DNA of 55,881 nt from Thraustochytrium sp. TN22 (Eukaryota; Sar; Bigyra; Thraustochytrida; Thraustochytriidae): NCBI GenBank assembly GCA_013306675.1, contig JABLUY010000242.1, positions 1 to 55,881 of the forward strand, in the 5' to 3' direction. Below the pieces are notes generated by a model, which searched no databases, had not been told where the DNA came from, and saw only the letters and a program-made list of their open reading frames with translations. Positions 1,893 to 25,961 of this stretch are shown here, piece by piece. Position 1 is the stretch's first letter; every line of letters starts with the position of its first letter. The position numbers and the translations under genes are program-made.

Positions 1893-2454
1893 GGTGATGC
1901 TCGCGACTGCATGTGTCGCATTGCGAGTGTGTGCTCGAGACCTTCGGGTCCAATTCATGTTTTGTTTTTGTTTGTTTGCAGTGATTGTCCTTGTGATTGC
2001 ACAGCGGTCAGAAAACAGCCATGGAGTCACTTTGCACAAGGACTTTCACGGGTACTTGCAAGACCGATCCAGCTCCGGGACGGCCTCGGGCTCTTGCGAG
2101 GCCACTTCGGCATGGAGTAGTCAACTGATCAGAACGTTGCTGGCGAAGATTGGCCTTACCGTGACACTGCAAGCCGAGTGTCAAGCGAGCGCACAGGACC
2201 GTGGCGCGCAAGTCAGCCAGTCACCAAGATGAGGAGATTTTGTCGCGAAGCGTGCCGCTTCTCCCTTGCTTGCTGCAAGACTGGCCTGCTCACTTGCCTT
2301 GGTGTTTTTTCCACCCTGCCGCCTGCGTTGAGACCGAGACCGTCGGGACGCGCGTCTCGTGGCGGTCGCTCTCGGCGCCGCTCGTCTCCCTGGCCAACCA
2401 GCCGCAAAGCGCCATCTAGCCCAGGAGCTCGGCCCGATCGCGCGGGCCCGCGCG
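1893..2454. other. Intergenic, ROCO-TIR to DUF3883 gene
   Basis: Tandem (plus/plus) intergenic of about 560 bp, clearly less GC-rich than the flanking genes. It contains a T-rich run ending in TTGCAG near 1958-1980, which resembles a splice acceptor. No convincing upstream exon was seen, so this is only a possible 5' UTR intron. Confidence 0.4.
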
Positions 2455-4311
2455 ATGCTGGCCGCGGCGGCGGCGGCGGAGGAGGAGGCGTACTTCGCGG
2501 CGGCGGCGGCGGCGGCGCGCGCCCCGGGCTTCGCGAGCGCCGATGCGGTGCTGGCGCGCATGGGCGGCGTGTACGCGGCGCAGCGCGTGGCCGCGACGCG
2601 CGGCGAAGCCATGCCGCAGTGCGTGGCGTACCTGTGCGACGTGCAGCGCAGGCTGGACGCCGTGGTGGAGGCCTTCTTCTTGACCAGGCCGGTGGCGTGC
2701 TATGTGGACCTGGAGAAGGAGGTGGTGCGTGCGCTCAACGCGGACGGCGTGCCGACGCTCGACCAGGCTCGCCGCGCAGCAGCAGCCGCCGTGGCGGCCG
2801 CAGGCGCTTGTGCTGGTGCCGGTGCTGGTGCTGGCGCTGGCGCCGGCGCCGAAAAGGGCGCCGCGGCGATTGCTGCGCATAGTCAATGTCCACAGGACCC
2901 GGACGAGATTAACCTGGACGAGGCGGAGGAGGAGGAGCTCGAGGCGCCCGCGGAGCCCGCGCCGCGCTGCTTTGCAGACTTTGGCCTCGGCCCGCTCTGG
3001 GCGCACCCACCGACGCGTGCGCGCTTTGCGTTCGGCGAGCCCAGGGCGCCTGCTGCGCAAGAAGACGTGCTGCGCCACCTCCAGGGCTTCCAGGGCGCGC
3101 TCGCAGACTTTCCCTATTTTCTCATGCAAACTCTTGGCGTGGCCAACCTTGCCGCCGACGCAGGCATCCTCGTCGACGTTAGCGCGCTCGCGCCTCTGCG
3201 CGCCTACCTGGCCGACTCCTTCGCGGACTGGGCCGTTCCTGCGCAAGCCGCCTCCTCGGCGACCCCAGACCAGCGAGCTGGCCCCGTCCCGCCCAAGCCG
3301 GGCTTCGGCGCTGTGCCCAAGTTGAAACGCCCACAGGGCAACCCGGCAGCGGTCGCCTTTGTTGACGCGGTCGAGGTCGCCATGGAAGAGGCCGACATGC
3401 GCTTCTCGCCATCCTTGGCGAAGCTCGAGGCCCTCATCGAGGAGCACGTCGAGGTCGACACGGCAGCCACCACCAAGATCTTGGCCGAATACGCGCTCCT
3501 CCACCTCGGGTCCTCCCGCTATCGCGCTAGGCGTTTTCTGCGGCAGGAGGAGGCCGACGGTGAGGAGGAGGCCAAAAATGAGGTGGCGGAGAAAGCCAAA
3601 GCAGAGGAGGAAGATGAAGGGGACGGCGATAGCAATCACGAGGGCACCAGTGACGCTAGCATGGAGCCCATGAGCAAGATCGATGCCAAGGCCCAGGCCG
3701 AGGTCAAGGCCGAGGTCCTCTGCAGCGATCTCAAGACCTCAGCAGGCGGCAGCGCGCAAGCAACAGGCGCAAGAAAGCGTGGCGGCTGCGAGACGGCCTC
3801 GAGAGCTGCGAAGCGGGCGCGGTTTGAGGCTGCCATGCCGCATCTTCGTGACGACCGATACGTCCGCTGGATTGAGGCGAGCGAGCTGGCAGGTGTGCTG
3901 CCAAGCCTGTCCGCGCTCGACGTGCGCGACCCGCGCCAAATGGGTCGGTGGGGCGAGAGCCTCGTGTACAAGTACCTGCGCGCCACGCATCCGGACTGCA
4001 AGGTGACCTGGGTGAACGAGGTGCAGGAGTCCAAGGCAAGCTACGACCTGACGGTGACGGAACGAAAGACGAACTCGCTGCGCACGACGCGTTTTGTTGA
4101 GGTGAAGACGACACGATTTGACAACAAGAACGCCTTTGAGGTCTCGCTGAACGAGTGGGAGTTCATCACGGGGCGCGGCGCGGGTACGCTTAATTTCGAG
4201 ATCTTTCGCGTCTTCAACGCCGGTAATCCCCGGGCGGTGCGCATCGCCGTTGTCGAGGACCCGCTGCGGCTTCTTCGCGAACAGAAGCTGCACCTCTGTC
4301 TTGCGATCTGA
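2455..4311 (+). CDS. DUF3883 (NO VEIN C-terminal type) protein, PD-(D/E)XK-like
   Basis: About 618 aa from the first ATG of the frame (2455); the frame opens further upstream only with non-ATG codons. The N-terminal third is Ala-rich and helical, with a low-complexity Gly/Ala run near 2810-2850 and an acidic patch. The middle (3540-3790) is charged, with Lys/Arg-rich nuclear-localisation-like sequence around 3770-3820. The last ~125 residues (about 3930-4300) match DUF3883: GRWGESLVYKYL, then WVNE, SYDLTV, FVEVKTT and NEWEF. The E...D...ExK pattern is the signature of a PD-(D/E)XK nuclease-like fold, and all acidic and Lys positions are present. The domain is known from plant NO VEIN and from many bacterial restriction or defence proteins. 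Here it sits between a TIR protein and E3 ligases. The substrate is unknown. Confidence 0.8.
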   Translation: MLAAAAAAEEEAYFAAAAAAARAPGFASADAVLARMGGVYAAQRVAATRGEAMPQCVAYLCDVQRRLDAVVEAFFLTRPVACYVDLEKEVVRALNADGVPTLDQARRAAAAAVAAAGACAGAGAGAGAGAGAEKGAAAIAAHSQCPQDPDEINLDEAEEEELEAPAEPAPRCFADFGLGPLWAHPPTRARFAFGEPRAPAAQEDVLRHLQGFQGALADFPYFLMQTLGVANLAADAGILVDVSALAPLRAYLADSFADWAVPAQAASSATPDQRAGPVPPKPGFGAVPKLKRPQGNPAAVAFVDAVEVAMEEADMRFSPSLAKLEALIEEHVEVDTAATTKILAEYALLHLGSSRYRARRFLRQEEADGEEEAKNEVAEKAKAEEEDEGDGDSNHEGTSDASMEPMSKIDAKAQAEVKAEVLCSDLKTSAGGSAQATGARKRGGCETASRAAKRARFEAAMPHLRDDRYVRWIEASELAGVLPSLSALDVRDPRQMGRWGESLVYKYLRATHPDCKVTWVNEVQESKASYDLTVTERKTNSLRTTRFVEVKTTRFDNKNAFEVSLNEWEFITGRGAGTLNFEIFRVFNAGNPRAVRIAVVEDPLRLLREQKLHLCLAI

Positions 4312-4386: not shown

Positions 4387-6951
4387 TCAGCGTGAAAAGC
4401 CTTCCTCCGGCTGCGGCGCGATGACGAGCTCGAGCTGTGGTCTGGGGCTACTGCGACGCGGGATTGCCACGCTGATGCGTTGAGAGAGCCGCCGCGGCAG
4501 GGACGCGCGCGCAGCAGCGGCGCGCTCCTGGCTGCGGCGGGACAGGCGCCGGCCCAGCGCTACCTCGTGCGGCGTCTCCGGCTGTCGCGCTGGCGGGTGG
4601 TGCAGGAGCCGCAGGACGCTGGCTCGCACGTCATCGACGCTGCGGTTCACGTTGACAAAGTCCATCCCGGTGACGACCCAGCGCTCGCACACGTCCGCGT
4701 AGGACCAGACGGTGCTGCGGTCCGGCAAAAAGAGCACCGGGTCCACCATGGGCTCGCCCTTGAGGTCCACGAGGTCCGCCAGAGAATCGCCGAGATCCTC
4801 GAGGTCCTGGTCGCTGCGCGGGAGATCTGCGTAGTCCACGACGGCCTCGAAGCGGTCCTGGCGCTGCCACTCGGCCCAATCAGCCAGCCAGGCATCCAGG
4901 TCCTCCTCGGAAACGGCCAGCGCCTTTTCTCTGGCCGCAGCGAGATCGTCGCTGACTCGGACCTCGGGCGCCACGTAGATGAGGCGCGTCGAGGACACCG
5001 GCAGGTCCAGGGCCTCGCGGAGATCGATCTCGAACTGCAGAAAGACCGACACCTCATCGGACCGATGCGCGGCCGCAAAGCGCCGCGCGTGCTCGTGCAC
5101 GACGTCAAGGCGCATGATGCGGAGGCCGAGGGCGCGCAGCTTGGCGCGGTCGCCGCGCGCGTGGGCAATGGTGGAGACAAGTTCGGCTTGGCCCAGAGCC
5201 CAGATGGGCTTGTCGTTGCAGGTGTTGATGGCGTCCACGAGGCGGACGACGATCTCGAGACTTGCAATGGGGTCCGTAACGATGGACCGCAGCACGCCGC
5301 GTGCCCGCGCGCGGAGCTGATCGCGCGTGGCTTCGTTGCGGTATTCCGCGGACCCGAGAAGCTTGGTGAAGAAAATCAAAAGGCCCTGCAAGTACGCTGG
5401 GTCCACGTGGTTGCGCAGATTCTCCACATCGATGCCGAAGTCTTCGCGGATGCGAAGCAGGCTCACCGCTCCAGCCTCGAGCGTCATGTCAATCGTGTAG
5501 CGCGAAGCGGCTGCGCGAAGTGCGTCGCGCATGGCAGCAGCTTCTTCCGTGGAGATGCCGACATTCTCCAGTCGCACCGGCACGGAGCCGACCCATCGGT
5601 CCTCGCGCGACCGCTGAAAGATCTCCAGAGGGAGTCCGGCGAGCCTCGGGCAGTCCTTGAAGGTGACCTGGCTCGCGCGAAGCTGAAATGACGCGGGCAC
5701 GCGCGCGAGCGATGCGGCCTCGGCTACGAAAAGGATGTCGTCCACGCGCATGTCCACCGGCAGGCTCGCCAGCGCGTTGCACCCCTCGATGTGAAGGTAC
5801 GACACGTGAATGTTTCGCGGGAGCCTCTCTAGCGACGAGCATCCGAACATTTTTAGAGTGCCGCGCTCGGGGACGGGCGACGCGGGCAGCGACTCGAGCG
5901 CCACACAGTGATCCAAGACGACCGTGTTGCGCGCGTGCACGCCTGCAGGGAGCGACGTGATGCGAGCGTACGGGTCGGTCACCTCAAGATGGCCAACGCT
6001 CGCCTCCGCGTCACGAGCCATCACCACCACGACGCCTCGAATCCACAGCGTGCAGCCCACCTTCAGCCCATCAGGCAGAGCAAGGGCGCCGTCTCCGACG
6101 ATGGCCATGTCGCCATCGACCTTGGTGCCAGTCTGAAGCTCGCCCTCAGCGTCCCTGGCCACCACCAGAAGCAGATCGCTCTCCTCCAGGCGCAGGCGCG
6201 GGAGGTCTGGTTCTAGCTCGAGCCGCAGAGCCCGCCCTCGGCGCATGCGAATCACGAGCGCATCCGCCTCCTCGTCCCAGCGGAGCCCGACGACGTTCTT
6301 GTTGGCGGCGAGCGCCTCGCAAAGTGCACCGTTGCGCACTTTGTCGCGAACGGCCAGCAGCTTCGCCCTGCCTGCTGCTGCAAGGCCGCATGGGGTGTGT
6401 TCCCAGGCCTTGGACATGTCAGTTCTCAAAGCGGCACGCGATTCCTCGTCGCCAAGGCTCCGGATGCATCGCAGGGAGAAACGGGCCGGCTTGGCACCTG
6501 CGGTGCACAGCGGCGAAATGATCACGAGGGGCGGCCACGTCGCAGCGATCGTGCAAAGGAAGATGCCCACGCTGCACAGGGCGAACGGCATGGCGCAGTA
6601 GCCGAGTCGGTCGTCCTCCATTTCATTGCAGCAGTTGCCGAAGCCCTGAACGAAAGCGGACAAGCAGCGGAACCACGCCAGCTCCGGCCCCGCGGCCGCC
6701 TCCGCAGCGCTTCCAAGGCAGCCGCGCGGCGTGAGCATCCCGTACAAGTCCATCGCATCGAAGACCTCGCCGTGCAGCGGCATGTCTCTGCGCAGCTCCG
6801 AGGACAAGTTGGAGAAGCTCACGGGCCGCGCGCCCTCGAGGCAGGCGGAGCACGCCTCCCGCACGCAGCGCGACGCCGTGCGGGACTCGTGCGCCGCGAA
6901 CTCCTTCTCCACAGCGCGGCGCAGCTCAGCGTTCACCAAAGGTGATCGCAT
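4387..6951 (-). CDS. LRR-NEL-U-box protein, copy A (putative E3 ubiquitin ligase)
   Basis: About 854 aa from the first ATG (6951); the frame stays open to 6990 but without ATG. Order of parts: short N-terminus, a hydrophobic segment at residues ~118-152 (possible membrane anchor or hairpin), a linker, then ~7 short leucine-rich repeats of the bacterial LPxxL type (~290-447). A NEL domain follows (~502-707). NEL is the E3 ligase fold of bacterial effectors (IpaH/SspH/SlrP), and its active-site CxD motif is present as C578-N-D580. The conserved RLDVVHEHAR helix, the EVSVFLQFEIDLRE segment and the WLADWAEWQ end also match that family. At ~729-784 a U-box-like stretch begins with GEPMVDPVLFLPD. 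The Arg/Ser-rich tail may be regulatory. It converges with the DUF3883 gene 75 bp away. Copy A has lost the N-terminal CxxC pairs seen in B and C. Catalysis is inferred. Confidence 0.8.
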   Translation of the reverse strand: MRSPLVNAELRRAVEKEFAAHESRTASRCVREACSACLEGARPVSFSNLSSELRRDMPLHGEVFDAMDLYGMLTPRGCLGSAAEAAAGPELAWFRCLSAFVQGFGNCCNEMEDDRLGYCAMPFALCSVGIFLCTIAATWPPLVIISPLCTAGAKPARFSLRCIRSLGDEESRAALRTDMSKAWEHTPCGLAAAGRAKLLAVRDKVRNGALCEALAANKNVVGLRWDEEADALVIRMRRGRALRLELEPDLPRLRLEESDLLLVVARDAEGELQTGTKVDGDMAIVGDGALALPDGLKVGCTLWIRGVVVVMARDAEASVGHLEVTDPYARITSLPAGVHARNTVVLDHCVALESLPASPVPERGTLKMFGCSSLERLPRNIHVSYLHIEGCNALASLPVDMRVDDILFVAEAASLARVPASFQLRASQVTFKDCPRLAGLPLEIFQRSREDRWVGSVPVRLENVGISTEEAAAMRDALRAAASRYTIDMTLEAGAVSLLRIREDFGIDVENLRNHVDPAYLQGLLIFFTKLLGSAEYRNEATRDQLRARARGVLRSIVTDPIASLEIVVRLVDAINTCNDKPIWALGQAELVSTIAHARGDRAKLRALGLRIMRLDVVHEHARRFAAAHRSDEVSVFLQFEIDLREALDLPVSSTRLIYVAPEVRVSDDLAAAREKALAVSEEDLDAWLADWAEWQRQDRFEAVVDYADLPRSDQDLEDLGDSLADLVDLKGEPMVDPVLFLPDRSTVWSYADVCERWVVTGMDFVNVNRSVDDVRASVLRLLHHPPARQPETPHEVALGRRLSRRSQERAAAARASLPRRLSQRISVAIPRRSSPRPQLELVIAPQPEEGFSR

Positions 6952-7658
6952 CCTCCAGAGCCAACGCGGCGTTTCGCGTCTCCCGCCCACTCCGCCTGGC
7001 TCGCCACGCGACGCGCGTCACGGTGCTTGGCTGGTTGGTATGGTTGGCTTGGTACCGTCGACGGCCGCGAGCCCCGTGTCGATGGATCGCCAGGCGCCCG
7101 TGTGGCGAACCTCGAGCAGGTTCGCCGCGGCGGGACGGGCGACGCCGCTCCGACTGCCGCGAGCAGCCCGCGGCCCTCCCCGGCACCGCGCCCCCTCGCC
7201 GCCGCGAGCGGCCTGCCCTCGCGGCTCGCGCGGCACACGCCCGATTTCCCAGTCTGAGCCAGCTGAGCGAGGGCACCGCAGGTGGCACGTGCCCACCCGT
7301 TCTCGGCCCGGCGGGACGCTACGATTGGCACGATCAACGCGGCGAAGGAGAGGCTACGCATCGCGGCGCCGGAGAAGGACGGGCGAGGGCGCCCCGCGGC
7401 TTGCGCTGGCTGACCTCCGTCCTGCGGCGCGCTGGCAACCTCGCGAGGTGGGCAGGGATCGAGGGAGATTGCCTGCTGCTGGTCGGGTCCTACTTGGCGC
7501 GAGGAATGCAAACCCGGGTACCGTACTACAACCTGGGTACCAGGGGGATGCGCTTGGGATGAATGCCATGCGCCTGGGATGTATTGCCGCCTGGCCTTCG
7601 GTAGAGACACGCTCGCAGAAACCAGCATCGCAAGGATTTTGTTTGTGGACGGCTTCTA
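6952..7658. other. Intergenic between NEL copies A and B
   Basis: About 700 bp holding the promoter/5' UTR of copy A and the 3' flank of copy B. Long frames exist on both strands but show no domain and no consistent protein character. Between 7505 and 7590 there are short direct repeats: a CTGGGTACC-type element twice and a GCGCNTGGGATG element twice. Confidence 0.4.
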
Positions 7659-10463
7659 CTACCGCTCGAAAGCCTCCTCGGGCGCCGGTGCCTGTGTGCT
7701 GCGGAGCGATGCACGCCTGCCTTGGCTTTGGCTTTGGCTGAGGCGGCCCTGGCTCAAGCGCTGCGAGAATCGGCGAAGCGAGCTGCGACCTTCCTTCCGC
7801 TCCGCGTCGGCTGCATCGGCTGCGGCGGCCGCAGCGCGCTCCTGGCTGCGCCGCGAAAGGCGGCGCCCGAGGGCCACCTCCTGCGGCGTCTCCGCCTGGC
7901 GTTCCGGCTTGGCGTCCAGCAGACGCAGCACGCTCGCACTCACGTCGTCCACACTGCGGTTCACGTTCACAAAGTCCATCCCGGTGACCACCCATCGCTC
8001 GCACACGTCCGCATAAGACCACACGGTGCTGCGGTCCGGCAAAAAGAGCACCGGGTCCACCATGGGCTCGCCCTTGAGGTCCACGAGGTCCGCCAGAGGA
8101 TCGCCGAGGTCCTCGGGGTCCTGGTCGCCCCGCGGCAGCTCCATGTAGTCCACCACCGCCTCGAAGCGGTCCTGCCGCTGCCACTCGGGCCAGCCGGCGA
8201 GCCAGGCGTCGAGGTCCGCGTCGCCGATGGCGAGCGCCTTCTGCCTTGCCGCTGCGAGCTCCGTGCTGCCGGCCACGCTGCTGTTGCTGTGGATGAGCCG
8301 CGTCGAGGATACCGGCAGGTCGAGCTCCGCGCGCAGGTGGATCTCGAACTCGAGAAAGATCGACACGTCGTCGCCGCCGTGTGAGGAGACGTACAGCCGC
8401 GCGTGGTGGTGCACGATGTCGAGACGCATGACGCGGAGACCGAGGGCGCGCAGCTTGGCGCGGTCGCCGCGCGCATGCGCAATGGCCGACACGAGCTCGG
8501 CCTGGCCCAGAGCCCAAATGGGCTTGTCGTTGCAGGCGTTGATGGAGTCTGCGAGACGGACGACAATCTCCAGGCTGGCCACCGGGTCCGTCATGATGGT
8601 CTGCAGCACCTCGCTGACGCGGACGCGCAGGAGGTCCTGCGTGTCCGCTTGGCGGTACTCCGCGGACCCCAGCAGCTTGGTGAAAAAGACCATGACCGCA
8701 TGCAGGTAGGCCGGGTCGACGTGCTTGCGCAGGTCCTCGACGCCGACGCCGAAGACATCGCGGACCATGAAGGCGTTCACGCCGTTGATGACTTCGCTGC
8801 GCGTCGCCTCGGAGCCGTGCTGCACCCGAAACCTGGACGACCTCTCCGCAAGCGCGGCGCGTAGCGCCACGACGTCAACGCCGACGCCCTCGAGCAAGAG
8901 AGTCGCGGGGGGCCGGTCGCCTTCCCCTTGAAGAGCTTCGCCCGGGACGCTGAATGGGTCCAAAGGAAGGCTCTGGAGCAGCTCGCAGGAGACGAAGCTA
9001 ACGTGCGACCCGCTCACACGGATCGAAGCTGGCACCTGCGTCAAGAGAGGAGCGTCACGCACGCGAAGGTTGCCAGACACGACGAGCCCCGCCGGCAGGC
9101 TCGGCAGGGTGCGGCATGCCGAGATCGTGAGGTCTCCCTGCACGCGCATGTTTCGCGGCAAGCGGACCAATTCCTGGCACCCGTGGATCTCAAGGCCACC
9201 GTTCTTGGGGACGAGCGACAGGGGTAGCGACTCCAGCTCGGGGCACGAGTCGACCACGATGCCACCATCGACGTCGATGCTACCTTCGCGCAGAGAGGTG
9301 AGGCCGGCTCGAATGTCGAAAAGACGAAGGCTGCCGACGCGGACGTATGCGTCCGACCGCACCGTCACCTCGACGCGCTCAACCAGGAGATTGCGGCCCA
9401 CCTCCAGCCCATCAGGCAGAGCGACCGAGCAGCCCTGGAAGGGATCGGTCGAAGACCCCTCAGCCTCAATGATGGCCATGTCGCAATCCACATGCGTACC
9501 TTCCGGGATCTCTCCATCTGCGTCGACCGGAACCACCAGGAGCAGGTGGCTGTCTTCGAGGCGCAGGGGCGGCAGCCCCGGCGTGAGCTGGTTCAAATCC
9601 AGCCGCAACGGGCATCCGTCACGCATGCGCACCACGAGCGCGCCGGCCGCCTCATCCCAGCGCAGCCGTGCCACGTCGTCGTTCGCGGCTAGCTCCTTGC
9701 CAAAGGTGGTGTCCATGAGCTTGCCGGCCACAGCCCGCAGCTTCGCTGCCCGCGACGCTGCGCGGCCACACGCTGTACGCCGCCAGGCCTCCTTTGCGGC
9801 GTGCTGGATCTCAGCGCGCTCCTCGCTGTCGCACATGAAATCGTGCACGCAACAGCCGCAGCGAAGGCAAAGGTCGGCCGGCTTGCTTGCAGCAACGCAC
9901 ACCGGAGACAGGAGCGCAAAGATGGGCCAGGTGACAATCATGGAGGCGGAGAAGAGCCCAAATCCAACGTTCTCGTAGCACCACGCCCCGCGTGCCCCGG
10001 TGCGGCCCCACGACTCGCAGTGTCCCGCGCAGCGATCCTCGTCGAAGGCGGCCTCGCACGAGCCGGCAACGCATTGCACAGCACACGTCAGGCCTTCGAA
10101 CCACCCGACGCCCAGACCCTCCACATCCTCCACGGCCCTCGGGAAGCACCACCGCGGCGTCAAGCATCCGTAGTACCACATCATCGCCTCGACGTCGTCT
10201 TCACCGTCCTCGACCAGGTCCGAGCAGCTCAGGCACATGACGGTCTCCTTACAGGTCAGGCACCTGCACCACGGCCTCCGGGCCGCCCCCTCGCTGGGGC
10301 GGATGGCCTCCACCAGCTCATACGCCACGCCCATCCTCGCGCGACCGCCCTCTTCCGCCGTGCGCTCCGCCGTGCTGTCCTCATTCTGTGACCCTCCCAG
10401 GCCCAGAAGATCCGCGCCTTGGTAGATCACTACCCGTCCGCCGCCGTCCGTGCGCCACTCCAT
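7659..10463 (-). CDS. LRR-NEL-U-box protein, copy B (putative E3 ubiquitin ligase)
   Basis: About 934 aa from the ATG at 10463. The frame is open to an ATG at 10895, but that start lies only 10 bp past the stop of copy C. The Met at 10463 aligns with one of the first two ATGs of copy C, so I prefer it. Residues ~66-81 form a CRCLTC...CLSC cluster (possible zinc knuckle), followed by more Cys and a hydrophobic segment (~167-193, ending in ALLSPVCVAASKP). LPxxL repeats follow (~370-560). The NEL domain has C644-N-D646 as the CxD motif, and the U-box-like domain is at ~795-850. The tail is rich in RLSQ repeats. Over the last 1.2 kb it is nearly identical to copy C. By analogy it is a membrane-associated ubiquitin ligase using LRRs to bind a target or inhibit NEL. 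Function is inferred from fold only. Confidence 0.8.
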   Translation of the reverse strand: MEWRTDGGGRVVIYQGADLLGLGGSQNEDSTAERTAEEGGRARMGVAYELVEAIRPSEGAARRPWCRCLTCKETVMCLSCSDLVEDGEDDVEAMMWYYGCLTPRWCFPRAVEDVEGLGVGWFEGLTCAVQCVAGSCEAAFDEDRCAGHCESWGRTGARGAWCYENVGFGLFSASMIVTWPIFALLSPVCVAASKPADLCLRCGCCVHDFMCDSEERAEIQHAAKEAWRRTACGRAASRAAKLRAVAGKLMDTTFGKELAANDDVARLRWDEAAGALVVRMRDGCPLRLDLNQLTPGLPPLRLEDSHLLLVVPVDADGEIPEGTHVDCDMAIIEAEGSSTDPFQGCSVALPDGLEVGRNLLVERVEVTVRSDAYVRVGSLRLFDIRAGLTSLREGSIDVDGGIVVDSCPELESLPLSLVPKNGGLEIHGCQELVRLPRNMRVQGDLTISACRTLPSLPAGLVVSGNLRVRDAPLLTQVPASIRVSGSHVSFVSCELLQSLPLDPFSVPGEALQGEGDRPPATLLLEGVGVDVVALRAALAERSSRFRVQHGSEATRSEVINGVNAFMVRDVFGVGVEDLRKHVDPAYLHAVMVFFTKLLGSAEYRQADTQDLLRVRVSEVLQTIMTDPVASLEIVVRLADSINACNDKPIWALGQAELVSAIAHARGDRAKLRALGLRVMRLDIVHHHARLYVSSHGGDDVSIFLEFEIHLRAELDLPVSSTRLIHSNSSVAGSTELAAARQKALAIGDADLDAWLAGWPEWQRQDRFEAVVDYMELPRGDQDPEDLGDPLADLVDLKGEPMVDPVLFLPDRSTVWSYADVCERWVVTGMDFVNVNRSVDDVSASVLRLLDAKPERQAETPQEVALGRRLSRRSQERAAAAAADAADAERKEGRSSLRRFSQRLSQGRLSQSQSQGRRASLRSTQAPAPEEAFER
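7741..8908. repeat. Near-identical block shared with 10984-12151 (copy 1)
   Basis: Bases 7741-8908 align with 10984-12151 at a constant offset of 3243 with no insertion or deletion that I can find. There are stretches of well over 100 bases with no mismatch. The block covers the end of the NEL domain, the U-box-like domain and part of the tail. Similarity falls abruptly upstream, where the LRR region begins. Confidence 0.85.
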
Positions 10464-10904
10464 CTTCTCCAGGTGCACGTCCTCCACGTCCTCCAGCAGG
10501 CCCGGGTCGTCGCCGCTCCGCGTCGCCGCGGCCGACCGCGCCGCCGCCGCGCCCGCGCAGGGAGGCCAGCGGCGACACGGCGGCGCGCCGGGAGCCCCGC
10601 GCTCGCGACCGCCCGCCCCCTCGCGCGCCGCGGTCCGTCTCGCCGGCCGGCGCTCGTGGATCGGGCTCTGGTTGCGGCGGCGCGTCTTGAGACCCGCAAC
10701 CTGAGACTGCACGTGCCGACTTGCGGCGTTCTCCGCAACCACGAACCTGCCCGGACCCCGCCGGGACCGCCGGCCCTGCCGGCGCCGTGGACTCGCGCGC
10801 CGCGAGGGCACGGCGCCGACGCCAGCGGGGTTAACCTCCGTCAAGCTCTGCGCGCGCGATTCACCGAAAAGCTCGCGGACACCTTCAAGACTCATAAATG
10901 TTCA
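10464..10904. other. Intergenic between NEL copies B and C
   Basis: About 440 bp of extreme GC content upstream of copy B. The minus-strand frame remains open here, so an N-terminal extension of copy B cannot be excluded. The sequence loosely resembles that upstream of copy C, as expected for a duplicated promoter or 5' UTR. Confidence 0.4.
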
Positions 10905-13769
10905 CTACGACCTATCGAAGGCCTGCTCGGGCACCGGCGCCTGCGTGCTGCAGAGCGACGCACGGCTGCCCTCACTCTGGCTGAGGTGGCCCTGGCTCAA
11001 GCGCTGCGAGAGTCGGTGAAGCGAGCTGCGGACTTCCTTATGCTCCGCGGCGATTGCATCGGCTGCGGCGGCCGCAGCGCGCTCCTGGCTGCGCCGCGAG
11101 AGGCGGCGCCCGAGGGCCACCTCCTGCGGTGTCTCCGCCTGGCGCTCCGGCTTGGCGTCCAGCAGACGCAGCACGCTCGCACTCACGTCGTCCGCGCTGC
11201 GGTTCACGTTCACGAAGTCCATCCCGGTGACCACCCATCGCTCGCACACGTCCGCATAAGACCACACGGTGCTGCGGTCCGGCAAAAAGAGCACCGGGTC
11301 CACCATGGGCTCGCCCTTGAGGTCCACGAGGTCCGCCAGAGGATCGCCGAGGTCCTCGGGGTCCTGGTCGCCCCGCGGCAGCTCCATGTAGTCCACCACC
11401 GCCTCGAAGCGGTCCTGCCGCTGCCACTCGGGCCAGCCGGCGAGCCAGGCCTCGAAGTCGGCGTCGTCGATGGCGAGCGCCTTCTGCCTTGCCGCTGCGA
11501 GCTCCGTGCTGCCGGCCACGCTGCTGTTGCTGTGGATGAGCCGCGTCGAGGACACCGGCAGGTCGAGCTCCGCGCGCAGGTGGATCTCGAACTCGAGAAA
11601 GATCGACACGTCGTCGCCGCCGTGTGAGGAGACGTACAGCCGCGCGTGGTGGTGCACGATGTCGAGACGCATGACGCGGAGTCCGAGGGCGCGCAGCTTG
11701 GTGCGGTCGCCGCGCGCATGCGCGATGACCGACACGAGCTCGGCCTGGCCCAGGGCCCAAGTGGGCTTGTCGTTGCAGGCGTTGATGGAGTCTGCGAGAC
11801 GGACGACAATCTCCAGGCTGGCCACCGGGTCCGTCATGATGGTCTGCAGCACCTCGCTGACGCGGACGCGCAGGAGGTCCTGCGTGTCCGCTTGGCGGTA
11901 CTCCGCGGACCCCAGCAGCTTGGTGAAAAAGACCATGACCGCATGCAGGTAGGCCGGGTCGACGTGCTTGCGCAGGTCCTCGACGCCGACGCCGAAGACA
12001 TCGCGGACCATGAAGGCGTTCACGCCGTTGATGACTTCGCTGCGCGTCGCCTCGGAGCCGTGCTGCACCCGAAACCTGGACGACCTCTCCGCAAGCGCGG
12101 CGCGTAGCGCCACAACGTCAACGCCGACGTCCTCGAGCAGGAGGGTCGACCTTGGTTGGCTGTCTTCCCCGCGAAGCACTTCGTCTAAGCGGCAAAAAGG
12201 GTCCAGGGGTAGGCTTGAGAGCTGGGAGCAGGTCCTGAAGCTGACGTACGTTCCATCAATCCGGATCGAAGCTGGTACGCCTGTCAGCCGAGGGGCGTCA
12301 CGTATCATCAGGTTGCCGACGACCGTGAGCCCCGACGGCACACTCGTCAGCATCGGACAATGCGAGATTTTAAGGTCTCCCTGCACGCACATGTTCTGCG
12401 GAAGACTAGCCAGACGCGCGCAATGGGAAATAGTCAAGTTGCCGTGCTTGGGGACGAGCGGCTCGGGGATGGTCTCCAGCTCAGAGCACAAGCTTAAGGC
12501 CAGAGTGCAGTCGACCAGAATCACGCCCTTGCGCAATGAAGCGAGGCTCGTTCGAGTGTTGGACATTCGAAGACTACCCACGCTGATTTCGGCATCCGGG
12601 CGTGGAGCCACCTCTACGCCCTCGACCAGGAGCGTGCGGCCCACGACGAGCCCATCAGGCAGAGTGACCAAACAGCCCTCGGAGGCTCCCATGAAGAAGC
12701 CGTCAGACTTGACGATGGCCATGTCGCAATCCACGCGCGTGCCTTCCGGGATCTCGCCGCCACCGCTGTCGGGAACCGCCAGGAGCAGGTGGCTATCCTC
12801 GAGATGCAGGGGGGGCACCCCCGGCGTGAGCTGGTTCAAATCCAGCCGCAGCGGGCATCCGTCACGCATGCGCACCGCGAGCGCACCGGCCGCCTCGTCC
12901 CAGCGCAGCGCTGCAACGTCCTCGTCCGCGACTAAAGCCTCGCCGAGGGCATGGTTCTTGAGCTTGCCATCCACGGCCGCCAGCTTCGCAGCCCGCGACA
13001 TGGCACGACCGCACGCCGTGCGCTGCCATGCCTCTCTTGCCCGCGCCCGGGCTGCGGCGCGCTCTTCCTCGTCGCTTAGGAAGCCCCGCATGCAGCTGCC
13101 GCAGCCGAGACAAAGGTCGACCGGCTTGCTCGCGGCAACGCAAACTGGCGAGAGAAGCGCAAAGACAGGCCACGTCGCGAACATATAGGTGAGAAAAAGC
13201 CCAAAGCCCAAGGTTTCGCAGCAGCTGGCCGCGAGCTCGCCGGTGCGACCACACCACTCACAGTGGCCTGCGCAGCGCTCCGCCTCGAAGGTCGCCTCGA
13301 ACCAGTCGCCAATGCCACCCGATATACAATCCAAGCCCTCGAACCACGCCAGGCCCAGCCCGCTCACCTCCTCAGCAGCCCTTGGGAAGCACCACCGCGG
13401 CGTGAACCACCCGTAAAACCACATCATCTCCTCAGTGTCAATGTCTTCCGCCAGCCGCGAGCAGCTCAAGCACGTGACGACATCCGTGCAGCTCTGGCAC
13501 CTGCACCCGTGCATCCAAGGCCTTTCACCGCGGTCGCGAAGCTCTATCATCAGCTCCGGTGCCACCGTCGCGCTCCACATCCCGCTCAGATACCTCCTTT
13601 CCGGGCCTCGGCGCCGCTCCGGCTCGTTCGCTTCGCTCAAGTGCTCCTGCGACCACCTTCCCGGGACTTCATCCTCGCGGTCGGTAACGTCGCTGCGCTC
13701 CTCCAAGCCCCGGAGCTCTGCGCCCTGGTCAACGACCACCGCCCCTCGGCCGCTCACGCGCTGCACCAT
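10905..13769 (-). CDS. LRR-NEL-U-box protein, copy C (putative E3 ubiquitin ligase)
   Basis: About 954 aa. The frame has two adjacent ATGs, at 13772 and 13769, and everything upstream is non-ATG; 13769 is the one matching copy B. Residues ~89-103 contain a CRCQSC...CLSC cluster. A hydrophobic segment lies at ~188-214 (FGLFLTYMFATWPVFALLSP). LPxxL-type repeats follow (~395-575). The NEL domain has the CxD motif at C665-N-D667, then the RLDIVHHHAR helix and EFEIHLRAEL. The U-box-like domain is at ~816-871, then an RLSQ-rich tail. The LRR region differs from copy B at roughly 40-50 percent of residues by eye, while NEL and U-box differ at only a handful. That suggests one conserved catalytic part with diversified recognition. 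Confidence 0.8.
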   Translation of the reverse strand: MVQRVSGRGAVVVDQGAELRGLEERSDVTDREDEVPGRWSQEHLSEANEPERRRGPERRYLSGMWSATVAPELMIELRDRGERPWMHGCRCQSCTDVVTCLSCSRLAEDIDTEEMMWFYGWFTPRWCFPRAAEEVSGLGLAWFEGLDCISGGIGDWFEATFEAERCAGHCEWCGRTGELAASCCETLGFGLFLTYMFATWPVFALLSPVCVAASKPVDLCLGCGSCMRGFLSDEEERAAARARAREAWQRTACGRAMSRAAKLAAVDGKLKNHALGEALVADEDVAALRWDEAAGALAVRMRDGCPLRLDLNQLTPGVPPLHLEDSHLLLAVPDSGGGEIPEGTRVDCDMAIVKSDGFFMGASEGCLVTLPDGLVVGRTLLVEGVEVAPRPDAEISVGSLRMSNTRTSLASLRKGVILVDCTLALSLCSELETIPEPLVPKHGNLTISHCARLASLPQNMCVQGDLKISHCPMLTSVPSGLTVVGNLMIRDAPRLTGVPASIRIDGTYVSFRTCSQLSSLPLDPFCRLDEVLRGEDSQPRSTLLLEDVGVDVVALRAALAERSSRFRVQHGSEATRSEVINGVNAFMVRDVFGVGVEDLRKHVDPAYLHAVMVFFTKLLGSAEYRQADTQDLLRVRVSEVLQTIMTDPVASLEIVVRLADSINACNDKPTWALGQAELVSVIAHARGDRTKLRALGLRVMRLDIVHHHARLYVSSHGGDDVSIFLEFEIHLRAELDLPVSSTRLIHSNSSVAGSTELAAARQKALAIDDADFEAWLAGWPEWQRQDRFEAVVDYMELPRGDQDPEDLGDPLADLVDLKGEPMVDPVLFLPDRSTVWSYADVCERWVVTGMDFVNVNRSADDVSASVLRLLDAKPERQAETPQEVALGRRLSRRSQERAAAAAADAIAAEHKEVRSSLHRLSQRLSQGHLSQSEGSRASLCSTQAPVPEQAFDRS
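10984..12151. repeat. Near-identical block shared with 7741-8908 (copy 2)
   Basis: Second member of the 1.17-kb direct repeat with offset 3243. It encodes the same NEL/U-box portion of copy C, and the few differences are mainly single substitutions. Recent duplication or gene conversion would produce this pattern. Confidence 0.85.
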
Positions 13770-14610
13770 CATCTCGCGCTCCTCCGGGGCCAAGAAGAAC
13801 TCCTCGTCCACGACAAGATACCCCGCGAGCGAGCAGCAGCCGCGACGACTCCAGGTTCCGGTTCCCGCTCGACGCGCGACGCCGCTCCGCCCAGGGCGGC
13901 ACAGGCAGCGGCGCCGGCGCCAGCGGCCGTAGCAGTCTGGCGTCGCCCGCGCGTCGCCCGCGCGTCGCCCGCGCGGCCTGCCGAGCGCCCAGCCTGAGAT
14001 TGGGCTTTGATCGCGCCTTGCTGCCTGCTCTGCCTGCACGTGCGGCGCCGTTCTTCACAAGCTCACTCACAGTCAATGTCACTCGCACGTCAGTCAAGGT
14101 TGAACTCCTCTGTTCTGTTCCGAGTCGCGGCGCCGACGGACTCGGAGCCGGCCCGTCCAAGTCGCAGCCGGCGGCGCGGCCGTCTCGTACATGTAGCCAG
14201 CCACTGCAAAGACGGGGCCCGCCGGTGCAATGGCTATAGGTCTCCGGCCCTGCCACGTGCGCTTGTGAACGTCTCGCACGCTCTTCAAGTTGTTTTGCGT
14301 GGTACTGTACGAGGCCTCAACGTCCTTGGGGGACGTCGTGGTGGTACTGGCACTCACAGTCAGGCTGGGCTGGGAGACAAAAGGATGATTCATTAGCTTA
14401 GATCTGTCCGTGGCGGCGAACGCGGATGGAGACGCTGCGGATTGCACAGCATGATCTTCGCTACTGCACGAAATGTCTTTCGCTGTGGCAACAATCACCC
14501 TCTCACTACTGCAAACGCTCTCTCACGACTACGAACGCACGGTAAACCCATGCACAAAGATGCTTGCCGCACAAGTCGTCCACGGCGATTTCCTTTTTAG
14601 TTTTGGGGCA
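13770..14610. other. Intergenic, NEL copy C to CC2D2A
   Basis: About 840 bp with the promoter region of copy C and the 3' flank of CC2D2A. An 11-bp unit (GTCGCCCGCGC) is repeated three times at 13942-13974. From about 14040 the DNA is less GC-rich. No gene seen. Confidence 0.4.
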
Positions 14611-17600
14611 TCAAAAGCGGGTGCTGACGATGGTGGCGAGGTAAATCCAGACGGAGAAGACCTTGTTGGTGTAGGGTACGACCAGGACGCCGAGCGCAAA
14701 GGTGGTGTTGTCAATGGTGGTGTTGTGAATGTCAGTGTTGCGCACGGCGCGCAGAATGGCGTCCATCTCAGTGAAGGTCATGTTGAGCGGGAAGCCAAAG
14801 ACGCTGTTGTTGGAGAGGGTTTCACGCAGGCCGTCGAGGTGCTCCTGCACAGTGGCGGCCATGCCCTGCGGGAACCCATCGAGTTTGTGCTCCTCAAGGC
14901 TCTCGAGCAGGCTGCGCAGCTTGCGGCCGACAATCTTGTTGAAGCGCGTGGTGCCGCGCTTGGCGCGCCAGCGCCGCATGGACTTTTGCACCTGCTCGGA
15001 GATCTCGCCTTCGAGGTAGGATACAAAGCGGCGGTCGAGGCGCTCGTAGGTGAGTCGTTCCAGCTGCACCGAGGGCATCTCAATGCGCGGGACACGCTGC
15101 GACCAAAAGGGCAGCCAGTCCTTGGGGTTGTCCAGGTTCCAGCGCATCTGCCACGGCGCGCCGGTGTCCTGGACGTTGGCCCACACGTTGCGGTCGTTCA
15201 TGACGAGGCCTACGTCGCGCAGCGGGCAGTGCGGGTCCGACGTCGTGTAGCCGCGACCGGTGGAGGCGTTCACGAGCAGGCGCGAGGCCGCGTTCTGGTC
15301 CGTGAGCAGGACATAGACCGTCTCGCCCTCTGGAATGCCGCGGCCCATGATGATGTAGGGCTGCACGGACTGGCGGTCGCGGAAGAGCCAGGCGAGGTAA
15401 TTGCAGAGCAGGATGGCGTGCTCCTCCCAGTCGCCGGCGGAGATGTCAAGGAACTGCTGCGAGGTGCTCCAGACGTCGTCGCCGCCCTCCACAAAGGCCT
15501 GCCAGTCCTCGAGAAAGGGCACCAGCGAGACGAAGCGCACGAGCGCCGGCACGGTCTGCAGCTCGCTTCCGTCACGGCCCGCCGGAGGCACCTGCGGTGC
15601 CAGGTAGCGCGGCGCGAAGACGGCGTCGCCGTCGATGCCGACGCCGAAGAGCTGCGTGTTGACCGTCTCGGCGGGCCGCGAGGCTTTGGCGCGCACCTGG
15701 GCCTCCCACTGTTTCGCGTAGCGCACGAGCTTGGGGTTCTCGCCAGAGCCAAGAGCTGGCTTGCCATCGTCGCTGGCTGTTGCCAGTACTGGGTCCAATG
15801 TCGCCATCAGATACACGTAGGTGGCGTTGGAGGCCTCGTGTCTCGCGCGAGAGGCCATCTCCCCGACGTCGCGCAGGTCCGCGCCGTCCGCGGCACCGCC
15901 CACGTCACCCGGGTCGCCGGCGGGTGCGCCGGCGAGCTCGAGGTCGTCGCCAGCTGCACCACGCGAGCGCTGCACGTAGCCGAGATTCACGTCGGGCGTC
16001 TCCACGCGGAACATGCCCTCAATGCGGCCATTCATGTAGATGGTGGAGAATGGGATCGTGAAGCTGCCCAGGTAGCGGCGCTCACGGCGCTGGAACATGG
16101 CGTCCTCGTTGCGGTAGTCCTCGCCTTGCGTCTCGACGATGACCTCGTCGAAGAGATTGAAGTGCACGTGGTCCGTGATGCTCTGCAGGTTGGCCGGGCT
16201 GAAGTCCTTGCGCGGCGGGATGAACGGCAAGAAGACAGACTCATTCCACGTCGGCGACGGGCCCTCCTGCGCCGAGCTGCGTCGTGAGGTTCCCTGGAAT
16301 CGCACCTGCACGAAGGACATGACGCGCTCCAGTCCACTCGACACGCCATCGAGATCGTCCTCGTCCTCATCGCCCTCGCCATTGTTGTTATTGTCGTTGC
16401 TGCTGGGATTCTCGCTCGAACCGCGACGAGGGGACGCCGAGGACCTGGGCGAACGCCCCGGCGAACTGGGATACACGCCGTGCGTGGCGCGGCGCCGCAC
16501 TGGCACGTTCTGGGCGCGCACGACCTGCACAAAGATGGAGGCCTTTTCGACGCTGAGCGAGGCCGGCTTGCGCACCTTGGGCGCGGGCCTCAGGCGCCGC
16601 CGCGGCTCGAAAAGGGCGCGGAAGAAGTCCATGTTGATGCTGAACTGCGGCAGCGGACCCTCCTTGACGACACTGCCCACCGGAATGTCGCGTCGCCGCT
16701 GCGCGTGCACGTTGGTCGACTGCAGGCTTCGCACGCGCTGCAAGAAGTCGCTGATGCGCGCCTTCTGCATCCGCTGAATGCGGAGCACCTCGGACGAGGA
16801 CCGGCCGGACGCCGCGAAGGCGCTGTCCTGGTCTAACTCCAGCTGCGCCTCAGCCGGCAGCAGCAAGGTCTGCAAGGCTTCCTCGTCGCGAATCTCCGCC
16901 TCGGTGACCGGGATCGGGTGATGGAAGAGATGCGGCTTCTCGCGCCGCAGGCGCAGCAGCGCGACGCGACGCGACTCCACGAACTTGTGGGAGTCCGCCG
17001 ACGGAAAGAGCGCGTCTCGCAGCACACTCTCCGAGCGGAAGAGCACGCCGCGCTTGGAGGACCACCGAATGATGTCGAAGAGCCGCAGCACCGAGGCGTT
17101 GCGCGGATCGTTGGGGTCCAGCCCGCGCAGCTCCTCGATGAGCTTCTGAAAATCCACCTCGTTGGCGAAGTCTGGCACGGCGTCGTCGTACTCGGTGGCG
17201 TCCGCCGACACGCCGCCGCCGCCGCCGCCCAGGTCGCCGCCCGCCAGATCGCCGGCGTGGTCGCCCAGAAACCTCCCGTTCACCTGTCCGTGGCCCTGCG
17301 ACCACTCCGGGAGGCCCACCAGCGTCCCGGCGCCGCCGCCGGCCTCGCCGCTGCCGACAGCAGCCTCTGTCCCGCTTGAGGCCGCCGGGTCTTGATCGAG
17401 ACCATCCTCGGCGTCACGCGTATTCCACGTCACGAGCGCGCGCAGCTGGCCCGCCGTGAAGCGGTCTTCTGGCGCCGCAGAGGTTACCAGGTGGTCGCCC
17501 TGCAGGTGATCCGCAAAGAGCTCGCCCAGGTTGCGCGGCTTGACGCCCGGCCGCTCCCAGAGCCACTTGCGCATGGGCGCGCGACTCGCGAACTGATGCC

Positions 17601-19930
17601 ACTCGTCCTCCGCGCCCACGCCGTGAGCCAGCACGTTGGAGGAGAAGTCCGAAGCCGGCACCGGCACGTAGACCTGCGCCAGGCACCGGCTCATGAGCGC
17701 GCCGGATGCGCACACGTCGAGGCGCAGCTCCGAGGGTCGCTGCTGCAGCTTGAGCCGAAAGACGCGGTTCCAAGTCACCGTGAAGCCGGGGAAGTTCAGT
17801 GCGGCGTCGGCGCTCTGCACGACGCGCCGGCCGTTCACCAAGACCACCACGTGCAGCTTCTCCTGCCGCACTGCGCGCCGCCGCTTTAGCTCGCGCGGGT
17901 CTACCTCCTCGTCCTTGTCGTACGCGCCGTCGGTCGTTAGCCGCAGCACGACGGCCTCGCTGTCCAGGGCTGCTGCGCCGTCTGCGAGCACGTCGGCCGA
18001 CGAGGATGACGTCCGCCGCCGGCTGCGCTTATCCTTACCGCTGCGCGCGCCCTTGGTCTGCTCCGGCCGCGACAGCTTGTACCGCTTCAACAGCTCTTCC
18101 GCCTTGGTCAGCGCCGCGCCCTGCAGGCGGCCATCCAAAGCGGATCGCACCAGGCTCGCGACCTGAGAGTACTGGTGCTCGAGCTGCCGCGCCGTATGCG
18201 ATGGCTCCCTGCGCAGGGCCGACAGCTTGACGCTCGTGCTGGTGAAGCCTTGGTGCGTACGGATCGCCTTGAGGTCGGTCCACTGACTGTAGGTCTCCTT
18301 GGTCAGCTCGCGCAGCTCGAGCTCCTCGGCGAGACGCCGCGAGAACATGTCCAGGATCTGGCGCCTCACATCGAAGAGAGCGTCGCCACTCCCGGACCCG
18401 TTCTCCCGCAGGTCCGCTTCGTACTCGAGCAGTGCGCCTAGATGCGACGTCAAGTAGTCCAGCAAATTGTCCTGCACCTTGGTCTGATACTTGATGAAGA
18501 GCCCGCGCAGCTTGGCGGCGGCCACGTCCTCCTCGATGAAGAGCGGGTGGTCATCGAAGGCTAGCGAGCGCAGCGCCACGTCTAGCCCGGCGCTGGCCAC
18601 GCCATGCGCGCTGGCGGAGGAGTGCACGCCGGCCGCTGGCGGCACGAGCCGCGTGCCGCACCAGTCGAGCGCGTCCTTGTCCGCAAGAATCGGATCCGCG
18701 TCTAGGGGCTGCGTCACGTAGGCGTTGCTCGGGTCCTCCTCCACGTTGAGCGAGCCGCCGGGCGTGAACCAGTGCTCCGCCGAAGACAGGGTGGTCTTCC
18801 AGCCTGCGCGTGGTGGCGCAACCGCGGCGCCGTCCCCATGCATGTCGCCGTTGTCGCTCTTGCCGCTCGCAGAGCTGCGTCGCTTGTCCTTCTGCTCAGC
18901 CTCGGCTGTCGGAGCCTGATGCACGTTGAGCACCTCGCTCTCCATCTCGCGCAGGAGGCGGTCCTCGAGGCGTGCCACGTTGCGCCGCGGCACGCCTTGC
19001 GGCACCTCCGGCATGAAGAAGCCCTCGTCCTGCAGGAGCGCCAGGGACTCCTCGTGCTCGTCGTTCGCCAGGCCATCCTCCTCCCTCGCCGACAGCGGCG
19101 CGTCCGGGTCGCGCGCCTCCACCTTGAGCGGGACCTCGCCCCGGAGCGCGGCCTGCTGCTGCAGCGCCTGCCGCCGCCTGCGGACGTTTTGCGCGGCGCA
19201 ATACAGCGCCGAGGGCGCCACGACCTCGGGCTCGAGCTGGCGGGCCATGGTGGCGGTCGCTGGTGCTGTGCTGCCGAAGCCAAGCCGCGAGATTTCCGGG
19301 GCCATCACCACAACGCTGCGCTGGTCAAAGTCCGCGGCGTTCGGGGCAAGCGAGCGCGCATCCTGGTCTTTGAAGACAGGCACACCGTCCTCATCCACGT
19401 CACTGTCTTCGGAGGACTCTCCTTCGTCGTCGGAGCCGTCGCTCGCGTTGGGCCCCTCGCCAGCCCCGCTTTCTTTGCCGCGATGGCCCGGCTCGCGCGA
19501 GCGGCCCCTGGACCGAGCCACGCTGCTCGCCCCCGTCACGGAGGACGCGGCGTCGTGGCGGGGCGACGTCAGCGTTGACGTCAGCCGCTGCTTCTTCTCG
19601 CGCAGCGCAGCGAGTCTCTCCGCGGCCGTCATGCTCTCTACGCATCGGTCATCGTCCTCGTGCGTCAGTTTCCCTTCCCGCACGCCGCCACAAGGTCGCC
19701 CGCCGCCACTTACTTCTGAACGAGGAGGCCTCGCGCTCCTCGCGGCGCGCCGCTCCGCCCTCGTCGCCGCCCTCGTCCTGCGCCCCGCCGTCATCCTCGC
19801 GCCTCCTCGACCCGGACCGCGACCTCCTGCGTCGCTCGCGGCCCTGCTGCTCGCCGCCCTCCTCGTCCTGCGACGACCTCTGCGCATTCGCTCGCAGCCT
19901 CGCCAGCCGGTCCTGCACGGAGTCGCCCAT
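14611..19930 (-). CDS. CC2D2A: CC2D2A, ciliary transition-zone C2 protein (2 exons)
   Basis: Exon 1 is 19930-19714 and exon 2 is 19637-14611, giving 1747 aa. The large frame stays open upstream of exon 2 but reads low-complexity sequence without an early acceptable start. The 93-codon frame starting at the ATG at 19930 reads MGDSVQDRLARLRANAQ and joins exon 2 in phase through a GTAAGT...TAG intron. CC2D2A is a Joubert/Meckel syndrome protein of the MKS module at the base of cilia. Visible parts: a charged disordered N-terminus, a helical region with FIKYQTKVQDNLLDYL, a C2-like domain at ~665-730, a full C2 domain at ~1105-1290, an inactive transglutaminase/peptidase-like domain at ~1440-1580 with IIMGRGIPEGETVYVLL, and the diagnostic C-terminus VPYTNKVFSVWIYLATI. 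Length is close to the human protein (about 1600 aa). It implies a flagellated stage. Confidence 0.9.
19638..19713 (-). other. Intron in CC2D2A
   Basis: A 76-bp intron on the minus strand: donor GTAAGT at 19713, acceptor TAG ending at 19638. Splicing restores the frame (AAG-AGC-ATG) and replaces an implausible upstream reading frame. Inferred from sequence, not from transcripts. Confidence 0.75.
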
Positions 19931-20568
19931 GCCGTCCCCGCTCTAGCCCTCCTCCTCCTGCTGCTGCAGCCCCTGCTCGCCGCCGTCGCGCGGCGTCGCC
20001 GTCGCCGTCGCCGTGGAGGCCGCCCGGGACTGCCGCCCTCCGGCCTGCGTCCTGGCGGCGCGAGTTGCCGTGGGCTGGCCGGCGTCGCGTTGCATTGCAT
20101 CGCTTCGCTTCGCACCCGTCCCTCCCGTCGCATCCCGCCCCGCATCGCAGCGGTCCCGCTCCGCTCCGCACTCGGCATTCCATCGACCGCCAAGCCGGCA
20201 TTTGATCGTTCGCTGCCTCATGATATCCTCGCCGGGGTGCGCGCGCCCCGCAGCGCGCCCCGGGGTGTGCGCGGCGCGGAGCGCCACATCGGCGCGGCAC
20301 GTGCAGCGCTCTCCGAGTCGAGTCGAGTCGAGTCGAGTCGAGTCCACCGAGGCCAGCGGCGAGCTCGGCGGAGAGGGAGGGAGCTGGCTGGCCGCGAGGA
20401 GGCCGCGGGCCCGCGGAGGCCGAGCAGGCCCCGAGCTGGCTGCCGGGCGAGGGCGGCTGGCTCGAGCTGGAGCGGGACTCGGCGCGGCGCGGCGCGGCGC
20501 GGCGCGGCGCAGCTCGCGAGCCCCAGGCGAAAGGGAGGAAGAGCGAGCACGCTGCGCGAGACGAGCGG
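19931..20568. promoter_or_regulatory. Divergent promoter, CC2D2A / coiled-coil gene
   Basis: A 638-bp head-to-head intergenic region that probably serves both genes. It contains a GAGTC pentamer run (about 20313-20342) and a GGCGC run (about 20484-20513). No clear TATA element and no RFX-type X-box was identified by eye. Confidence 0.45.
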
Positions 20569-25471: not shown

Positions 25472-25961
25472 CGCGCCGCGGGCCGCGCGCCGCGCGCCGC
25501 GCCGCGCCGCCGGCCGCGCGCGCGCGCGGCCGCACTGCTTGGGCTCTGCCGTCCTTTTCAAATTCAAAAAAGCCTCCACTCCAGCATGACGCCGGACTTC
25601 GCTTTCAAAATTCAAACCCCGTCGCCGCGCTCCGCTGCGACGCCGGCGGCGGCGGCCTCCGCGCGCCGCGCCGCGCCGCGCCGCGCCGCGCGGAGCCCGC
25701 CCGGCGCGCCCGCGGGCCCGCGCTCGGGGCGAGGCCGCGCATGAGCGCCATGCGGCGAGGATGCGGGCTCGCGGAAGATTGGACTCGGAAGCCGCACTGA
25801 GAAGCTAGGATACGCCGCCGAGGCCGCGGCGCGCGGCGGCAGAACGGGGCGGGGCGGCGGAGGCGGAGCCGGTGGACGAGGCGCGGGGCGCGGCGGCGAC
25901 GCTCGCGGGCGCTGGGGCAGGCAGACGGGTCGGGACGGGACGGGACGGTCGGCGAGCAGGC
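25472..25961. promoter_or_regulatory. Divergent promoter region, WDR59-like / YCII gene
   Basis: About 490 bp head-to-head. It has A/T-rich patches near 25555-25615 (TTCAAATTCAAAAAAG and a related TTTCAAAATTCAAA) inside otherwise extreme GC sequence, and a GGGAC repeat near 25932-25950. Nothing coding is supported. Confidence 0.4.

Follow-up and report, generated by a model that had tools for sequence, protein, structure and literature searches.

A NEL-domain protein family with a U-box-like C-terminal fold in thraustochytrids

Three neighbouring NEL genes

We analysed a window of 55,881 nucleotides from Thraustochytrium sp. TN22 (contig JABLUY010000242.1 of assembly GCA_013306675.1), in which three neighbouring minus-strand genes, here called copies A, B and C, occupy long open frames at 4387-6990, 7659-10895 and 10905-14039. 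Their predicted starts (M at 6951 in A, 10463 in B and 13772 in C) were chosen by fit to the mutual alignment. The three genes have a common layout: an N-terminal part with a single transmembrane-like (TM-like) segment, LPxxL repeats resembling leucine-rich repeats (LRR), a NEL (novel E3 ligase) domain and, at the C-terminus, some 58 residues referred to below as the tail. Their features in the window are as follows.

4387..6951, minus strand: copy A gene (TM-like segment, LRR-like region, NEL, U-box-like domain; 854 aa from M at 6951)
6532..6585, minus strand: copy A hydrophobic (TM-like) segment
5620..6078, minus strand: copy A LRR-like region (LPxxL motifs)
4861..5388, minus strand: copy A NEL catalytic domain
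5218..5220, minus strand: copy A catalytic Cys codon of C-N-D
4603..4776, minus strand: copy A U-box-like C-terminal domain
7659..10463, minus strand: copy B gene (934 aa from M at 10463; alternative start 10334)
9903..9968, minus strand: copy B hydrophobic segment
8955..9419, minus strand: copy B LRR-like region
8175..8696, minus strand: copy B NEL catalytic domain
8532..8534, minus strand: copy B catalytic Cys codon
7917..8090, minus strand: copy B U-box-like domain
10905..13772, minus strand: copy C gene (955 aa from M at 13772; alternative start 13580)
13125..13187, minus strand: copy C hydrophobic segment
12198..12662, minus strand: copy C LRR-like region
11418..11939, minus strand: copy C NEL catalytic domain
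11775..11777, minus strand: copy C catalytic Cys codon
11160..11333, minus strand: copy C U-box-like domain

The frames, the alignment and Pfam confirm the preliminary description of this DNA, which had proposed three adjacent minus-strand genes sharing a hydrophobic segment, LPxxL repeats, a NEL domain with C-N-D and the string GEPMVDPV; this string is identical in all three tails. Ahead of the NEL domain, five LPxxL motifs are present in A, four in B and two in C. These repeats, together with a weak match of residues 345-457, seen in copy A only, to the NADase chain 7crb (E 1.6e-4), are the basis of the LRR reading; the matched part of 7crb is presumably the LRR of a plant TIR-NLR. Pfam reported no LRR family in A-C and LRR families in two further family members, L009 and L016.

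All three copies match PF14496 (E 1.4e-16 for A, 2.9e-15 for B and 1.5e-16 for C; 57-61 bits against a cut-off of 24), and C-N-D sits at the NEL active-site column in each. The structure model of copy A shows the NEL catalytic-domain fold and aligns to SspH1 401-623. The earlier assignment to NEL is thus borne out by the profile match and by the predicted fold around C-x-D, and, judged by sequence, the match is not a matter of chance.

A scan of the genome (37.9 Mb, 453 contigs) recovered 25 NEL places, 3 in the window and 22 elsewhere, all above the Pfam cut-off. This number is a lower bound. The open frames range from 471 to 3511 aa, the shortest being truncated by a contig end. A profile of all 25 copies, compared with solved NEL sequences, matched 12 of them (E 7e-24 to 2e-21). 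Protein searches added 25 relatives (P0001-P0025); a later one brought in the Hondaea protein P0026 and an LRR-NEL protein of Bradyrhizobium, P0027.

In the aligned NEL domains, all 51 eukaryotic and all 20 bacterial rows have the Cys and Asp of C-x-D. The further columns common to both groups are mostly Leu and Trp, joined by Asp 654 (open-frame numbering of copy A), whose frequency is 0.98 in eukaryotes and 0.90 in bacteria.

The ratio of non-synonymous to synonymous substitution rates (dN/dS), calculated for eight pairs, was 0.36-0.78 in the stretch of about 410 residues before NEL (N-terminal part and LRR), 0.09-0.39 in NEL and 0.10-0.42 in the tail. In seven pairs the first stretch exceeded NEL, while in the B-C pair the two were level. 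Between B and C (7659-14039), dS is 0.03 over NEL and 0.70 over the N-terminal/LRR part. Nearly identical NEL domains behind diverged heads make it likely, as far as sequences tell, that the NEL half of these two genes was gene-converted. A variable head joined to a homogenised catalytic half in turn hints at a role in recognising targets that change.

Tandem arrays with faster-evolving heads would be typical of recognition proteins, and some copies (C44, C156) are divergent, so one may imagine a catalytically weak or decoy family of NEL-like baits or sensors without ligase function. We consider this improbable, given the unbroken conservation of C-x-D and the low NEL dN/dS in all eight pairs.

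The tail and the place of the thumb

The predicted structure of the tail gives a whole-domain match to the U-box fold. When the tail alone was compared structurally with 180 chains, the closest folds included a Prp19 U-box dimer entry. It is the predicted fold that supports the earlier U-box-like label; the sequence searches gave no U-box match. Pfam found no U-box in any of the 25 tails at E<=10, nor in the whole-protein scan of A-C, and a PDB profile search with the tails returned a single match, to keratin (E 0.25). The genome holds seven Pfam U-box matches, none of them at a NEL place.

Alignment of the tails by hhalign with seven U-boxes of the same genome gave a probability of 8.8%. With 48 tails it rose to 20%, at a score of 20.3 against 9.2 ± 2.1 in 200 column-permuted controls, one of which reached that score. 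This sequence link between tail and U-box is suggestive only.

Tail columns were counted over 48 of 50 tails, the partial ones (P0014 and L017) being omitted. No conserved Cys/His set of zinc ligands is found in them, and the copy A tail has one Cys, which speaks against a RING domain. All 48 rows keep a hydrophobic residue at the loop-1 position (L752 in copy A, open-frame numbering). In its whole-domain fold and the absence of the zinc-ligand set, the tail resembles the U-boxes of Prp19, Ufd2, E4B and CHIP; unlike these, it has no Pfam U-box match, differs in loop 2 and stands behind a NEL domain.

According to the accessible part of PMC12506513, the catalytic NEL of SspH1 covers 405-622 and is followed by the part that binds the ubiquitin-loaded conjugating enzyme (E2~Ub), the E2-UbBD or 'thumb' (623-697), made of two long antiparallel helices. 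The match of the copy A model to SspH1 ends at 623, where the thumb begins. Alignments to other NEL chains run up to residues 468-711, with the thumb boundary compared for SspH1 only. In the model no helix of four or more residues lies between positions 231 and 279.

The spacer between the last conserved Trp and the U-box measures 26-31 residues in 48 of 50 rows, and 19 and 22 in the other two. In 23 of the 50 rows, at most 25 residues follow the U-box, which leaves no thumb downstream there. (P0026 lies outside these spacer counts and the tail hidden Markov model (HMM), and is included among the 51 eukaryotic NEL rows.) In the model, then, the bacterial E2~Ub-binding part appears to be missing, with a eukaryotic-type U-box fold in its place. 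We infer that one E2-binding part, the thumb, was replaced by another, the U-box.

NEL homology and fold, active-site residues, the U-box fold of the tail, the match ending at the thumb, narrow spacing, conservation and dN/dS below 1 together lead us to propose an endogenous Cys-type ubiquitin ligase family whose U-box, at the thumb position, would dock E2~Ub before ubiquitin is relayed to the NEL Cys. We give this proposal an even chance.

Several observations weigh against it. The usual loop-2 Pro, which is part of the U-box contact with E2, occurs in only 20 of 48 tails, and the loop of this family reads T-G-x-D-[FL]-x-N, with G in 48, D in 47 and N in 44 of the 48 rows. With that Pro rare and another motif nearly invariant, the E2 contact, if any, would differ from the textbook one. 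Additionally, in solved chains the family sequence profile keeps matching for about 30 positions past the start of the thumb (as far as residue 549 in 5kh1), and so the spacer may be a thumb remnant. A thumb profile built from five bacterial sequences found no match at the thumb position of the eukaryotic rows, a weak null since it misses 13 of 20 bacterial rows as well.

The altered loop and the reach of the profile into the thumb would also suit a U-box that serves as a dimerisation or scaffold module, pairing two NEL domains or keeping NEL inactive; E2 would then contact the NEL core or a thumb remnant in the spacer. Prp19 and CHIP form dimers through their U-boxes, the Prp19 dimer entry is among the closest folds to the tail, and the narrow spacing is compatible with packing on NEL. 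The model without thumb-like helices and the invariably kept loop-1 residue argue the other way, and we regard a scaffold role as possible though rather doubtful.

The preliminary description had also placed a second E3 (ubiquitin ligase) module in the same chain. Both domains are indeed there; their reading as two separate ligases is the less likely one. Both folds within a single chain could mean that NEL works through its Cys while the U-box, independently, activates E2~Ub towards other targets. NEL would then be left without its known E2 site, and the narrow spacing and constant pairing suggest a single unit, which makes two independent ligases very unlikely in our view. Because the U-box occupies the position of the bacterial E2~Ub thumb, a composite ligase is the likelier arrangement.

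Relatives, neighbours and origin of the family

The tail is present at 25 of 25 NEL places and in 25 of 25 relatives (P0001-P0025), in two of these proteins, P0014 and L017, only partially. A tail search across the genome recovered 24 places behind NEL and one piece at a contig end. Among four frames scanned for other domains, L009 and L016 combine SPRY, LRR and NEL, L015 combines Arm and NEL, and L012 has NEL only.

The contig-end piece (G000:C358:35-193, plus strand) is perhaps a 26th copy.

The nearest named relatives of the A-C proteins come from Hondaea fermentalgiana (Thraustochytrida, Labyrinthulomycetes). The proposal that a protist couples a U-box to an LRR-NEL system, for which a search of other protists had been advised, agrees with the eukaryotic gene neighbours and with the same architecture found in Hondaea and other relatives. 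One such gene is transcribed in some species, as P0018, an MMETSP transcript, shows. P0026 was already machine-annotated as 'NEL domain-containing'.

Three database records call for caution. In the Hondaea record P0002, LRR-NEL-U-box is predicted as a single protein with tubulin, probably because the gene model runs on, and P0009 and P0011, NEL proteins filed under Durusdinium trenchii, may be thraustochytrid contamination.

A tree was built from 71 NEL domains, 51 of them eukaryotic and 20 bacterial; a single branch, supported at 100/99, divides the two groups. The tree took 71 of 72 rows, L056 being dropped for its low score, and P0027 is identical to L037, which leaves 19 distinct bacterial rows. 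Well-supported pairs join copies of this genome to relatives: Arm-NEL L015 with P0013 (Hondaea), the SPRY-LRR-NEL proteins L009 with P0022 and L016 with P0020, L019 with P0023, and L014 with P0024. Equally well supported are the groups of L011, P0003 and P0004 (the last from Hondaea) and of L020, P0010 and P0014 (the last from Hondaea). Such cross-source pairs indicate that the family diversified before this species and Hondaea split. A younger clade of eight unites A-C, the four C335 copies and C427. The tree is unrooted: it separates eukaryotic from bacterial domains and carries no direction of transfer.

On the bacterial side, NEL was found in 9 of 398 genomes of the Bradyrhizobium phylum, the centre genome included. 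Of 28 matches, 20 loci were examined, and at none does the NEL frame carry the tail. When genome contigs were scanned by alignment for bacterial copies of NEL or the tail, none of the 59 pattern matches was confirmed, and tblastn of plasmids with one NEL query gave no match. The best bacterial match to the tail HMM (L043, E 0.0011) lies on the strand opposite to NEL and was taken as chance.

The neighbours of the array are eukaryotic in type: CC2D2A/CEP76-type, XPG nuclease, cation-ATPase, ion channel, COR-TIR and NO VEIN C-terminal proteins. The GC content of the window contig (C158) is 62-76% in 2-kb steps. Encoded beside CEP76/CC2D2A-type, XPG and Ca-ATPase-type genes, A-C do not qualify as secreted bacterial effectors. 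Bacterial contamination as their source was ruled out by these neighbours and by the domain fusions, and the best reading is that the A-C family is endogenous to thraustochytrids.

Close to the array, the plus strand encodes a protein with COR-A and a C-terminal TIR domain (48-1892, open at the window start) and, between it and the array, a frame of 650 aa with a NO VEIN C-terminal domain at its end (2359-4311). On the minus strand, a single frame at 14611-20193 carries CC2D2A N-terminal C2, CEP76 peptidase-like and C-terminal domains, and a 1049-aa frame at 22466-25615 has a C-terminal RING_16 domain, a further ubiquitin-type gene close by.

Proposed action and meaning

The family is like the bacterial LRR-NEL effectors (IpaH/SspH/SlrP, NopM; PF14496) in the NEL fold, C-x-D and preceding LPxxL repeats. 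Unlike them, it is encoded by a eukaryote at 25 places, has SPRY or Arm heads in some copies and, in the copy A model, shows a U-box instead of the full E2-UbBD thumb.

As far as the available text of PMC12506513 goes, NEL ligases are bacterial enzymes with a catalytic domain that lacks structural homologues among eukaryotic E3s. In the part at hand, PMC9320238 likewise treats NEL as bacterial, and PF14496 is merely among the search models in the section of PMC7029713 that was available. PMC7145615, to the extent accessible, claims a NEL-like link for green-algal NLR genes by equating an LRR-superfamily segment with NEL; unlike in our family, C-x-D, a U-box or a ligase family were not seen in that portion. 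No paper on thraustochytrid NEL or NEL plus U-box was recognised among the matches listed (the best 7 to 20 of up to 12,228 papers), with most subscription journals outside coverage.

In the composite ligase that we favour, the variable N-terminal part and the LRR would select the target. The U-box, about 28 residues behind NEL in the thumb position, would dock E2~Ub. The NEL Cys of C-x-D would then accept ubiquitin and hand it on, so that ubiquitin would leave E2 for the NEL Cys and reach the target from there, in a relay like that of RING-between-RING (RBR) ligases. RBR ligases hold an E2-binding RING-type fold and a catalytic Cys within one chain. The likeness would lie in this logic only: Pfam shows neither RING nor IBR in A-C, and their catalytic domain is NEL.

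We propose tentatively, with slightly less confidence than in the composite ligase itself, that a eukaryotic lineage rebuilt a NEL ligase by swapping the thumb for a U-box. This would yield a further class of Cys-relay E3s convergent with RBR, with some 25 sensor-like ligases bearing LRR, SPRY-LRR or Arm heads.

A conserved eukaryotic NEL family with an intact active site and an apparently exchanged E2 module offers a testable route to building a Cys-type E3 from swapped parts. To our knowledge, little is known of immunity in the thraustochytrid lineage. The NEL/U-box proteins, which may act in intracellular surveillance, are a candidate intracellular recognition family of this lineage.
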